From the IMG/VR virus record IMGVR_UViG_3300020186_000001, positions 1-64,000 of that record: 64,000 nt of DNA; one strand, written 5' to 3'. Position 1 is the first letter of the stretch, and each line of letters opens with the position of its first letter. Positions 2,053-18,896 of the stretch are shown here, in pieces. The notes beneath the pieces were generated by a model. It ran no database searches. It was not told where the DNA came from and was given only the letters and a program-made list of their open reading frames with translations. The DNA is from a virus. Position numbers and translations under genes: made by a program.

Positions 2053-2733
2053 ATGAATCAGGAAATCCTCAAATGGATAAGAATTGTAGTCATGCGAACG
2101 CTGCGAGAGAAGAACCTCACAAGGCTCGATACTTCGCAGCTTATATCGGCTGGGATGCTTGGATACTGCCAGTGTATTAAAAGGTTTGATCCCAATCGTG
2201 GCGTGAAGTTCAAGACTTATGCGGAGTACAGGATTAAGGGTGCAGTGCTCGATGAGGTCAGGAAGATGATTGGCGATGAGCGTTGTAAGAATAAAAAGCC
2301 GATCCAGGTTGAATTTGATTATACTGAGATCAGCGACGGCTCACGTTGGCAAAAGTCCATGGATTCGCAGATTGACTTTGATCGGTTTATAGACCGAGTT
2401 CCGCTAGATGACCGAGAAAAGAGCATACTTCAATCTCGGCTTTTGGGGATGAATCTAAGAGAGATCTCTCAGAAATTTAGTTTCAGTGAATCGCGTGCAT
2501 CACAACTTCTCGCAAAAATCAAGAAGGTAGTTTATGGTTATCTCAGTGATGAGTTAAATCTTGATTTCAAATTAGTAGCTTATGAATGTCCGGCGTGTTC
2601 TGGAGTAAGCCATGTTGGTAGCTATGTGTCTCAATTTAAATGCGATACTTGTGACGCTGATCTAGTGATTGTGGACCGTGTTCCGATACTGGCAGTAACG
2701 GAGAACTTTGATGAGGACGACGATGTTTTCTGA
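2053..2733 (+). CDS. Phage sigma factor, FliA/sigma-28-like, with C-terminal zinc ribbon
   Basis: 226 residues from ATG 2053 after AAGG. Residues 27-70 match sigma region 2 (core-RNA-polymerase and -10 binding), including RFDPNRGVKFKTYAEYRIKGA, the arrangement seen in FliA/SigF sigma factors. Residues 115-163 match region 4 (PLDDREKSIL...LREISQKFSFSESRASQLL), the helix-turn-helix that reads the -35 element. Region 3 is absent or much reduced. After region 4 comes a treble-cysteine-pair module (C179, C182, C197, C200), a probable zinc ribbon, then an acidic tail. It would redirect host RNA polymerase to phage promoters. The - strand cluster carries four FliA-like promoter elements that are plausible targets. 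Confidence 0.85.
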   Translation: MNQEILKWIRIVVMRTLREKNLTRLDTSQLISAGMLGYCQCIKRFDPNRGVKFKTYAEYRIKGAVLDEVRKMIGDERCKNKKPIQVEFDYTEISDGSRWQKSMDSQIDFDRFIDRVPLDDREKSILQSRLLGMNLREISQKFSFSESRASQLLAKIKKVVYGYLSDELNLDFKLVAYECPACSGVSHVGSYVSQFKCDTCDADLVIVDRVPILAVTENFDEDDDVF

Positions 2734-3748
2734 TTTAGAAGAAGTGGCTTCCTTGCTTGACGATTGCATTGAAAAAGCATTCGCCAAAAAGGGCAAAGTT
2801 CAAAAGTACGAGGATTCGATCATCAAGGGGTTGAGCCATGATCCGTTCAATCCTGTTATGATGACCGAAGAGCAGCCATACTATAACCCGTATAGGCAGA
2901 TGCAAGATGGCTCATTTTTGCCGCATAGCGTGGAATACTGGGAGAGCCAGGGCAAGTCGTCTGACGATTACAATACTACCAGACAGTTTTATCAAAACTA
3001 CATTCCCGTTTCTCAGGCTAGAGATCGTCTTGAGACGTTTTCCAGGTCTCTCAGTAACGATCTCTTTAAGGCGGGTGCGGTGCCTGTTGGAACAGTCCAT
3101 ACATACCGAGACGGTCATAAATATAAGAAGATGGGAGAAGGGCAATGGGCACCTGTGGGCGATCCTTCGGAGCGTATGTCCACTTGGCTTAACCATTCGA
3201 AGCCAGAGTATCGCCAGCAGGCCAATCAAGAGATTGAAAGACATGGAACGCAGGTCACAGCTCTTGAAGAAATGATCAAGCGTAAACAATCCGAGCAGCA
3301 GACTCAGGAGAGGGTTAAGCAAGAGATGACGAAAGAGATCATGGGCAAGGTCAAAGATGCTATGTCAAAGCTTTACGATGGTAAAATGCCAGATGAGGTC
3401 TCACAGCATTTCGATAAGAACGAGGCTAAAGAAGATGGCAAGATCAAGCCAGAAGATGCTTTGAAGGATTTGGAGAGTAAGCTTTCGCAGAACTACACTC
3501 CAAAGCACGATGTCACAGTATCGTTTATTCACAATGGAAAGCGGTATGAGCACGTCTTTCCGAACATCCAGGCCAAGGGCCATCATGATGCGATTGACAA
3601 AGTTCAGGGTGCAATATCTCAAAAGTTAAAGGGTGCTCAGGTTACAGGCATTCAGGCGTCCAGATCTAAAGAAGACAAGGGGTCCAAGGAAGGCCGGCCT
3701 CAGCCAAAAGCTGCCAAAGAAAACAATCAAGGAGCGAGTAATGGCTAA
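2723..3748 (+). CDS. Probable virion-associated protein with HKY tag
   Basis: 341 residues. The start is taken at ATG 2723, with GAGGA just upstream, overlapping the sigma gene end. Upstream alternatives at 2708 (TTG) and 2711 (ATG) are less well placed. Residues near 125-150 read VGTVHTYRDGHKYKKMGEGQW, a variant of the HKY...W tag found in neighbouring head proteins. The middle is a charged coiled-coil-like stretch and the C-terminus is Lys/Gln-rich. No enzyme motif seen. By position between terminase and portal and by the shared tag, I infer a capsid-associated or injected protein. Confidence 0.6.
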   Translation: MFSDLEEVASLLDDCIEKAFAKKGKVQKYEDSIIKGLSHDPFNPVMMTEEQPYYNPYRQMQDGSFLPHSVEYWESQGKSSDDYNTTRQFYQNYIPVSQARDRLETFSRSLSNDLFKAGAVPVGTVHTYRDGHKYKKMGEGQWAPVGDPSERMSTWLNHSKPEYRQQANQEIERHGTQVTALEEMIKRKQSEQQTQERVKQEMTKEIMGKVKDAMSKLYDGKMPDEVSQHFDKNEAKEDGKIKPEDALKDLESKLSQNYTPKHDVTVSFIHNGKRYEHVFPNIQAKGHHDAIDKVQGAISQKLKGAQVTGIQASRSKEDKGSKEGRPQPKAAKENNQGASNG

Positions 3749-17255: not shown

Positions 17256-18896
17256 ATGAGCAATTTTTACGTTGGCGAAAAAGATTTTAGAGTATGGCTT
17301 CCAGAAGTTGACTTCTGTGAGAAGGCCGATGACTCTGAATCATTTGATTCGCGAAAGCTGACTGGCATCATGTCCACTCAGCGTAAAGATCGTCAAGGCG
17401 AAGTCGTTGACGCGAAGGGTCTTGAGTTTGACGAATTCCTTCAAGCCGGTCACTTCAACGATAATCACTCCCAAGAAACATCTGCAATTGTGGGCTATCC
17501 GCAATCTGTTCGTTATCATACAAGTCTGGCTCAATTCACTGATAACAAGATTCAGGCTCCTGGCTGGACTTGTGAGGGATATGTTCTAAAAGGGACTAAG
17601 CGTGCAGATGGTATCTGGGAATTAGCGAAGGCTCTCAGAGAAGTTCCAAATCGCAAACTTGGATTCTCAATCGAGGGCAAAGTCCTTCGAAGAGCAGACA
17701 AGACTATCGAAAAAGCCAAGATCAGGAACGTAGCTATAACAAATTGCTTCCCTGGGGACACGGCTGTTTCAGGTGCCGCTGAAAAGGCAATGAGACGCTG
17801 GTATTCAGGAGATATGATTGAGATTAATTTGGCGACTGGAGAGAAACTCACCGGAACACCTAATCACCCTATATTCACGCAGCGTGGCTGGATAGCTTTG
17901 GGTGAGATTGATGAAGTCAATGATTGCGTTGGACGCTTCGATGTTGATCTCGCGAAAGCGGCTTCTTTTTCTAAGATCGCCCATGACATAGATGACGTTC
18001 CAACCACTATTGAGCAGATATTCAATGCGTCTCTTATTCCTGGAGACTCTCTCTGGATCAATAAGGCTAGAGAAAGAAATTTCCACGGCGACGGAGCCGG
18101 AAGCGATGTCGATGTTGTATTGTCCAACGGACTTCTGAGGGACCGCCTCAAAGCCTCTTTCTCGAATAAATTCGGCAACAATGTTCTCACCGTTGCCGAT
18201 AAAAAGTTGTCGAGATTCTTTAGTCTTCGACTTCTTAACAAGCTCGTCCATGCTGGACTTTGTTCCGCGTCTGGCTTCATTCGCAGCTTTAGCAAACAGC
18301 AATCTCTCGCTGGGGCTTCTTCTGGCATTTCTGGTTCTGTTGGTCTCTTGAATAGATCTAGCGATGCCGTGTCTTTTGGCGACATTGTGAACAGTTTCAC
18401 GAGTGACTCCGTATCGGGAGGCGATAAGGGAAGATGCCTCTCCGCGTCTATAGGCTTCAGCAATGTCACTCTCAAGCGAAGGTTCAATTTTTCTGGCCAT
18501 GTTTTTAATCTCGATACAAAAAATGGATGGTATCAGGCCAATGGCATAGTCGTCCACAACTGCCCAGTAAACACTGATTGCACTTGGGATCTAATCGCCA
18601 AATCATTTAATGAAGCAGACTCGGCTGTAAAGGCTATGACTGCTGGATTCGCAACATCTCCAGCCGCTCAGACGGGCGGTGGTGCAGTGAGATCTGAGTC
18701 TCTTGATTCAGATATCAAAGATGTGCATGGCGACAAGAAAAAGAAGAAAAGACAAGAGTCTCTGATGAGAGCTATCGCATTCGACGATATGGAAAAAGCA
18801 ATGGAATTGGTTTTAGAGCGTCGTCCTGATTTCGATGAGGATGCAGCGGCTATTTTTATTAAACATCTTTTCATGAAAGGAGGACAGCTATGCTAG
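17256..18896 (+). CDS. Prohead protease precursor interrupted by an intein
   Basis: 546 residues, with a 272-residue intein at 17745-18560, leaving a 274-residue protease. The extein has the phage serine protease pattern of the HK97/U35 type. His71 lies in GHFNDNHSQ and Ser138 in KLGFSIEGK, followed by the conserved VAITNCPVN strand into which the intein is inserted. The enzyme would cleave scaffold and capsid precursors during head maturation. A Lys-rich linker precedes a helical C-terminal segment. Its position before the scaffold-like and capsid genes is canonical. The 3' end overlaps the next start (ATGCTAG). Confidence 0.87.
   Translation: MSNFYVGEKDFRVWLPEVDFCEKADDSESFDSRKLTGIMSTQRKDRQGEVVDAKGLEFDEFLQAGHFNDNHSQETSAIVGYPQSVRYHTSLAQFTDNKIQAPGWTCEGYVLKGTKRADGIWELAKALREVPNRKLGFSIEGKVLRRADKTIEKAKIRNVAITNCFPGDTAVSGAAEKAMRRWYSGDMIEINLATGEKLTGTPNHPIFTQRGWIALGEIDEVNDCVGRFDVDLAKAASFSKIAHDIDDVPTTIEQIFNASLIPGDSLWINKARERNFHGDGAGSDVDVVLSNGLLRDRLKASFSNKFGNNVLTVADKKLSRFFSLRLLNKLVHAGLCSASGFIRSFSKQQSLAGASSGISGSVGLLNRSSDAVSFGDIVNSFTSDSVSGGDKGRCLSASIGFSNVTLKRRFNFSGHVFNLDTKNGWYQANGIVVHNCPVNTDCTWDLIAKSFNEADSAVKAMTAGFATSPAAQTGGGAVRSESLDSDIKDVHGDKKKKKRQESLMRAIAFDDMEKAMELVLERRPDFDEDAAAIFIKHLFMKGGQLC
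17745..18560 (+). mobile_element. Prohead-protease intein without in-frame endonuclease
   Basis: 272 residues. Cys1 begins block A (CFPGDTAVSG), block B is GTPNHPIFTQRGW, block F is VFNLDTKNGWYQ and block G is ANGIVVHN followed by Cys as the +1 extein residue. All splicing residues are present. The middle (about residues 66-248) has no LAGLIDADG or HNH motif and is unusually Ser/Gly/Leu-rich. The complementary strand of this segment encodes a 231-residue homing-endonuclease-like protein in exact codon register. The + frame filler therefore seems to exist mainly as the shadow of the antisense gene while staying free of stops. Confidence 0.88.
17805..18500 (-). CDS. Antisense homing endonuclease nested in the intein
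   Basis: 231 residues on the - strand, wholly within the intein. ATG at 18500 has a weak GAG about nine bases upstream; a GTG at 18557 would add 19 residues. Residues 11-46 are a clear helix-turn-helix (SLIASRYGVTRETVHNVAKRHGI). Residues 94-150 have GENIVAEFIRERGF, QKSVGQYNIDIASGSVAVEI and KRRIEYLLNSGWNVIYVMGD, the core of Vsr/EDxHD or related PD-(D/E)XK nucleases (E95, D121, E130 candidate catalytic). The usual downstream His is not obvious, so the exact family is tentative. The C-terminal 45 residues are dual-coded with intein blocks A-B. No promoter was identified. Confidence 0.8.
   Translation of the reverse strand: MARKIEPSLESDIAEAYRRGEASSLIASRYGVTRETVHNVAKRHGIARSIQETNRTRNARRSPSERLLFAKAANEARRGTKSSMDELVKKSKTKESRQLFIGNGENIVAEFIRERGFEAVPQKSVGQYNIDIASGSVAVEISFSSLIDPERVSRNKRRIEYLLNSGWNVIYVMGDLRKRSRFREINIEASNAIIDFINLTQSYPATLREYRVIRCSGEFLSSRQINLNHIS

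Follow-up and report, generated by a model that had tools for sequence, protein, structure and literature searches.

A putative homing endonuclease gene antisense to, and in exact codon register with, the intein of a viral prohead protease gene

The prohead protease gene in the stretch of viral DNA analysed here (64,000 nucleotides; positions 1 to 64,000 of IMG/VR record IMGVR_UViG_3300020186_000001, hereafter the window) is interrupted by an intein, the opposite strand of which carries an open reading frame for a predicted nuclease in exact codon register. We consider it highly probable that this is an intein with its mobility gene, a homing endonuclease gene (HEG), on the antisense strand; transcription, splicing, cleavage and homing are each inferred. 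The evidence includes the conservation of both proteins, the choice of synonymous codons where the antisense gene begins, and the pattern of codon-position differences among relatives.

The intein and its opposite strand

The host gene is a prohead (head maturation) protease with the intein inside (+ strand, 17256–18896; PHROG_1028, E = 1.4e-46), and its reading frame encodes 546 aa. The intein (+ strand, 17745–18560), the boundaries of which were set from an alignment and from intein-free alleles, comprises 272 aa, from Cys1 at 17745 to a terminal His-Asn in which Asn272 ends at 18560; Cys+1 occupies 18561–18563. Once joined, the exteins align without a break across the junction to SPO1 gp3.2 and to the procapsid protease of phage LysYB1, and intein-free alleles of the protease therefore exist. 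The Pfam family Intein_splicing (PF14890) matches the window intein (2.2e-7), a Pfam intein match is present in 50 of 51 relatives, and a profile made from the inteins of these 51 relatives recovers inteins of known structure, with 2jmz the best (5.5e-10). No Pfam match to an endonuclease domain was found in the intein's own frame, in keeping with the original prediction of a protease intein that lacks one.

The core of block B, TPNH (+ strand, 17856–17867), contains T38 and H41, and blocks F and G (HVFNLDT ... VVHN) span 18498–18560 on the same strand. C1, T38, H41 and N272 are invariant in 51 aligned inteins, with C273 (C+1) conserved in at least 90% of them. In an AlphaFold2 model of the intein read forwards, the N- and C-terminal splicing parts have pLDDT values of about 91–98, which drop to 38–60 over ~90 residues of the middle. 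The consensus of the 51 inteins includes EDFHGDGxxGxVDVV; the HGDG...VDVV pattern that had been ascribed to many database inteins is thus real.

On the opposite strand, a frame of 231 uninterrupted codons (− strand, 18500 to 17808; stop codon 17805–17807) lies in exact codon register with the intein. It had been expected to overlap blocks A–B and to reach the edge of block F. Block B is indeed overlapped, the complement of its TPNH core encoding YRVIR in the tail of the antisense protein, but block A is spared, the antisense stop falling at intein codon 21; block F is not merely reached, as the start codon lies inside it, opposite His252.

The antisense protein is a predicted Vsr-like nuclease

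The 231-residue protein was foreseen to combine a helix-turn-helix (HTH) with a Vsr-like core, and both parts were recovered. AlphaFold2 models it with a mean pLDDT of 91.7 and a pTM of 0.77, and the order of helices and strands in the model fits the nuclease fold. The N-terminal HTH (helices 7–18, 23–30 and 34–43 in the AlphaFold2 secondary structure; − strand, 18372–18482) is accompanied by matches to HTH_23, HTH_7 and HTH_58 among relatives. The Vsr/MTES_1575-like nuclease core comprises residues 103–173 (− strand, 17982–18194); Pfam MTES_1575 (PF18741; a Vsr/DUF559-type nuclease family) matches 43 of 52 HEG relatives, and the window protein at 1.4e-5, which is under the curated cut-off.

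Against solved structures, a profile of 22 HEG relatives matched 3r3p (1.1e-6) and the endonuclease-like, DUF559-type 3hrl (3.4e-5); with a 52-member profile 3hrl improved to 2e-6, and 3r3p did not pass 0.01. The entry 3r3p ('mobile intron protein') is one which we take to be the catalytic domain of I-Bth0305I, an EDxHD homing endonuclease. Nothing relevant was returned by phmmer with the window protein alone against the PDB, and a Foldseek search of the antisense model against the PDB gave no match below 1e-3, with 3hrl appearing weakly (E 0.086, probability 0.94, TM 0.62 of target). Nuclease homologues in a sense context, the absence of which would have refuted the original prediction, are thus available in MTES_1575, 3r3p and 3hrl.

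Asp131 (− strand, 18108–18110; opposite intein Val122) and Glu140 (− strand, 18081–18083; opposite intein Phe113) are invariant in all 52 relatives, and Glu105 of the first core helix (− strand, 18186–18188) is present in 51 of them; Tyr128, Asn129 and Gly166 are also invariant among the aligned relatives. A catalytic-candidate Asp had been placed opposite a Val codon, correctly, although its residue number is 131 and not 121. The His of a GGxWH motif, found in 37 of the 52 relatives, is missing both from the window copy (SFSSLI) and from its closest relative (L027), and the window copy may therefore be inactive or degenerate, or may use another residue.

This missing His, together with the lack of cleavage data and the mere pairing of an HTH with a nuclease fold, leaves some room for a conserved antisense protein that is not a homing endonuclease at all: a DNA-binding regulator, or control of the capsid gene through an antisense transcript, with the nuclease fold inactive. 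We regard this as unlikely. Asp131 and Glu140 are invariant and Glu105 nearly so, the gene sits inside a mobile element and recurs in different host genes and at different sites, its nearest relative of known structure is I-Bth0305I, a homing endonuclease encoded in an intron, and a second class of antisense HEG, described below, appears to have a LAGLIDADG-like homing fold.

The antisense gene starts within block F

The antisense ATG (− strand, 18498–18500) lies exactly opposite the CAT codon of block F His252, and an ATG, GTG or TTG is found exactly opposite the block F His (H-VYNLQ/ET) in 67 of 71 non-redundant inteins. Upstream of the ATG, a GAG opposite the CTC codon of Leu256 (− strand, 18510–18512) forms a weak Shine-Dalgarno core; it is all that the window copy has, most relatives carrying GGAGG opposite Asn-Leu-Gln. 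The synonymous codons used here are far from those expected from local usage: CAT encodes the block F His in 55 of 66 inteins (24.7 expected) and CTC the block F Leu in 53 of 64 (17.2 expected); with their neighbours, these codons yield GGAG or GAGG ~8 bases ahead of the antisense start in 49 of 67 (14.7 expected). Ordinary actinobacterial inteins, used as a control, combine start and Shine-Dalgarno sequence in 0/8 cases, although these are too few to stand alone. Block F is, as judged from this codon choice, also the putative start codon and ribosome-binding site of the antisense gene.

At the other end, the antisense stop lies inside the intein, at codons 2–28, in 70/71 inteins, and the HEG is therefore contained wholly within the mobile element. 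A search for an antisense promoter in the window gave a single site (9/12; 18602–18631), which is at chance level.

Both strands are under selection

In register 0, codon positions pair 1-3, 2-2 and 3-1, such that position 1 of the + strand is position 3 of the − strand. Over 18 disjoint pairs of relatives, the splicing blocks show 194/87/412 differences at + positions 1/2/3, against 1200/473/739 for the HEG (Fisher p 4e-38), and position 1 exceeds position 3 in the HEG for every one of the pairs; for the closest pairs, the ratio of position 1 to position 3 differences is 0.46 in blocks A–B, 0.08 in blocks F–G, and 1.4 to 3.4 in the HEG. The comparison of codon positions on both strands that had been proposed as a check thus reveals a polarity that flips between the splicing blocks and the HEG.

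From the + protein sequence and flanking-extein codon usage, a mean of 5.3 antisense stops per intein would be expected, and 15.4 for the window; essentially none are seen, the few counted being mostly natural terminal stops. Synonymous codons were also resampled from the extein's own usage, with scoring by profiles that excluded the window. When the + protein was kept, the − frame acquired a mean of 13 stops (minimum 7 in 200 trials) and the − profile score fell from 218.7 to 85 at best; in the converse case, with the − protein kept, the + frame acquired at least 5 stops and the + profile score fell from 249 to 183 at best. The exact register of the two strands, as first described, is confirmed, and chance is excluded by this two-way resampling. 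At the level of sequence comparison, both strands are demonstrably co-selected, the + wobble position varying in the splicing blocks and the − wobble position in the endonuclease. Distances between splicing blocks correlate with those between HEG cores (r 0.62; 0/2000 permutations), which suggests that intein and HEG travel as a pair.

These data also bear on the idea that the antisense gene alone is still of consequence and that the + frame belongs to a decaying or non-splicing intein, kept open by chance. The + middle is indeed poorly folded and changes in the manner of a strand lying opposite a coding sequence; however, the splicing blocks vary at the + wobble position (ratios of 0.46 and 0.08, as above), C1, T38, H41 and N272 never vary and C+1 hardly does, every relative has an open + frame where free antisense evolution would be expected to produce ~10 stops, and the host genes are essential capsid genes, making this account very improbable. 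That the antisense frame is a by-product, open merely as the complement of a selected intein frame, can be dismissed: register-0 antisense frames are often open opposite GC-rich genes, and for some high-GC relatives the probability of an open frame is 0.2–0.5, but the window is AT-richer (hence the 15.4 stops expected), the flip in polarity, which puts the wobble of the HEG region on the − strand, refutes it, resampling destroys the − profile score, and the start and Shine-Dalgarno codon choice, the pLDDT of 91.7 and the homology to real nucleases contradict it.

Distribution among phages and bacteria

The suspicion that the window intein belongs to a widespread class is supported. A tblastn search with the − protein returned 125 phage records (E ≤ 0.01, best 6e-26), from phages infecting Salmonella, Gordonia, Pseudomonas, Klebsiella, Escherichia, Vibrio, Mycobacterium and others, and the genes over these matches are annotated as head morphogenesis, MuF-like minor capsid or hypothetical proteins. 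Related stretches in IMG/VR number 437, and 19 loci were found in bacterial genomes, including Anaerolineaceae, Micromonospora, Streptomyces and Scytonema. When phage, IMG/VR and bacterial records are combined, an intein lies opposite 169 of the 170 distinct HEG sequences, always in register 0; the sole exception is a fragment at a contig edge. The − frame is thus intact in homologous inteins, and its breakage would have counted against the original prediction. No free-standing or sense-strand copies of the window HEG family were found among 203 loci, apart from one short match at a contig edge (L028) that did not permit a verdict. The other two antisense registers of the relatives are full of stops.

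The host proteins are mostly Mu gpF-like minor capsid proteins (22 of 51 cases) or products of other head genes. The nearest relative, L027, interrupts the same protease gene as in the window, with its insertion five codons downstream (PVNTD|C as opposed to ITN|C).

Several individual loci merit description. Two separate inteins, each with an antisense HEG, occupy one 1921-aa head reading frame in IMG/VR (L090/L091), and in a Scytonema sp. contig (L121) residues 66–196 of the host reading frame form a second short intein-like match, without a middle, beside the antisense-HEG intein. A Thiotrichales MAG (L125, 4075–4504) retains both splicing ends and has lost the HTH half of the antisense HEG, apparently as a decaying copy. 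Frameshifts break both the intein and the antisense frame in Salmonella phage GE_vB_M5 (L128), an UNVERIFIED record, and are probably sequencing errors. In Salmonella phage PK1 (L026, 2408–3217), the annotation lists the antisense frame as an additional hypothetical protein next to the head morphogenesis gene and does not recognise it as an intein-borne HEG. The profile of PHROG_15127 (head protein), which 51/51 hosts match, includes the antisense-coded intein middle, and this 'head protein' family is therefore partly an intein artefact.

A further class, from Gordonia phages

In nine Gordonia phage records (Lennon, Sitar, Nordenberg, Thing3, SchottB, Barsten), a MuF-like protein is interrupted by a different intein, opposite which lies a 196-aa frame (MKLDPVAAAYVAAFIDGEG...), likewise in register 0. 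The intein with its antisense LAGLIDADG-like endonuclease lies at 2381–3208 in both Nordenberg (L126) and SchottB (L127), where the MuF-like minor capsid gene is interrupted at a site of the same type. The antisense protein contains the motif AYVAAFIDGEG and matches I-MsoI weakly (0.0013) and Pfam LAGLIDADG_3 at only 0.26; a sense-strand relative, the endonuclease of phage CcrRogue (8e-6), passes the LAGLIDADG_1 cut-off. Its start lies outside block F. A comparison of two members gives 42/3/8 differences at positions 1/2/3 for the HEG, as against 14/10/70 for the upstream extein and 4/4/15 for the N-terminus of the intein. An IMG/VR search for relatives of this LAGLIDADG class gave none. Since the antisense HEG of these inteins is unrelated to the Vsr-like one, the antisense arrangement arose at least twice.

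Proposed mechanism

Read forwards, blocks A–B and F–G would fold into the splicing domain, with the middle of the intein serving as a stop-free, poorly folded spacer that would leave with the intein, which most likely splices from the protease precursor. Read backwards, translation of an antisense transcript (the promoter of which was not identified) would begin inside block F and end within the first ~28 intein codons, giving an HTH protein with a Vsr-like (EDxHD-type) nuclease. Host-gene alleles that lack the intein are the most likely target of this nuclease, and repair of the cut would then copy the intein in.

The only codons that place a stop on the opposite strand in register 0 are, for either strand, TTA, CTA and TCA, encoding Leu or Ser; all have synonyms, and an antisense gene can therefore be accommodated by synonymous changes alone. 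We infer that register 0 is the only one found because an inverted HEG could be made compatible there by such changes.

Significance and comparison with known systems

On the larger proposal our confidence is evenly divided: that antisense-HEG inteins form a mobile-element class that is widespread and as yet undescribed, that evolved on two or more occasions with unrelated nucleases, and in which splicing and mobility share base pairs on opposite strands and block F supplies the ribosome-binding site and start of the mobility gene. If it is correct, many apparent mini-inteins or endonuclease-less inteins would be mobile, with their enzyme on the strand that annotation pipelines ignore. Hundreds of base pairs encode two unrelated folded proteins on opposite strands in exact codon register, and this double coding is kept in phages whose hosts span Proteobacteria, Actinobacteria, Chloroflexota and Cyanobacteria, making these inteins an unusually large natural data set on antisense double coding. 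The synonymous codon signal in block F offers an experimental handle, as replacing the CTC codon of Leu256 with another Leu codon should cause loss of the endonuclease only.

We found no description of an antisense HEG within an intein in the literature consulted, with the reservation that a 2025 preprint surveying actinophage inteins of 'non-canonical architecture' may overlap; the suggestion that the class has been overlooked is correspondingly uncertain. A paper from the same group (PMC11855218) credits that preprint for overlapping reading frames, and some of the Gordonia cases may be described in it. The ShiLan insertion in actinophage methylases, an out-of-frame HNH (PMC11855218), resembles the window in that a homing endonuclease occupies an alternative frame while the host frame stays open, but it lies on the same strand, lacks a splicing domain and encodes an HNH nuclease.

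EDxHD/Vsr-like homing endonucleases (Dassa 2009, Taylor 2011) have been reviewed (PMC3943268); I-Bth0305I is intron-encoded and the Dassa enzymes reside in genes fractured by split inteins, none there being antisense to an intein. I-Bth0305I (PDB 3r3p) shares with the window HEG its superfamily, by profile, as well as HTH-type DNA-binding parts and a phage-borne location; the window HEG differs from both I-Bth0305I and the Dassa enzymes in having its HTH at the N-terminus and its gene antisense to an intein. Antisense HEGs with demonstrated expression are found in the nuclear group I introns Dsq.L2066 and Dir.S956-2 of Didymium (PMC9548176), where, as in the window, the HEG is opposite the strand of a self-splicing element. 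However, the host there is a non-coding ribozyme with the HEG in a peripheral loop, and no second frame has to be kept open. Full-length (bifunctional) inteins, the own frame of which includes a LAGLIDADG or HNH homing endonuclease domain, share with the window intein the splicing blocks A–G, a would-be spreading endonuclease and an essential host gene, whereas the window endonuclease, which would not be spliced out with the intein, is predicted to be a separate protein from the opposite strand, with its own start and ribosome-binding site in block F.
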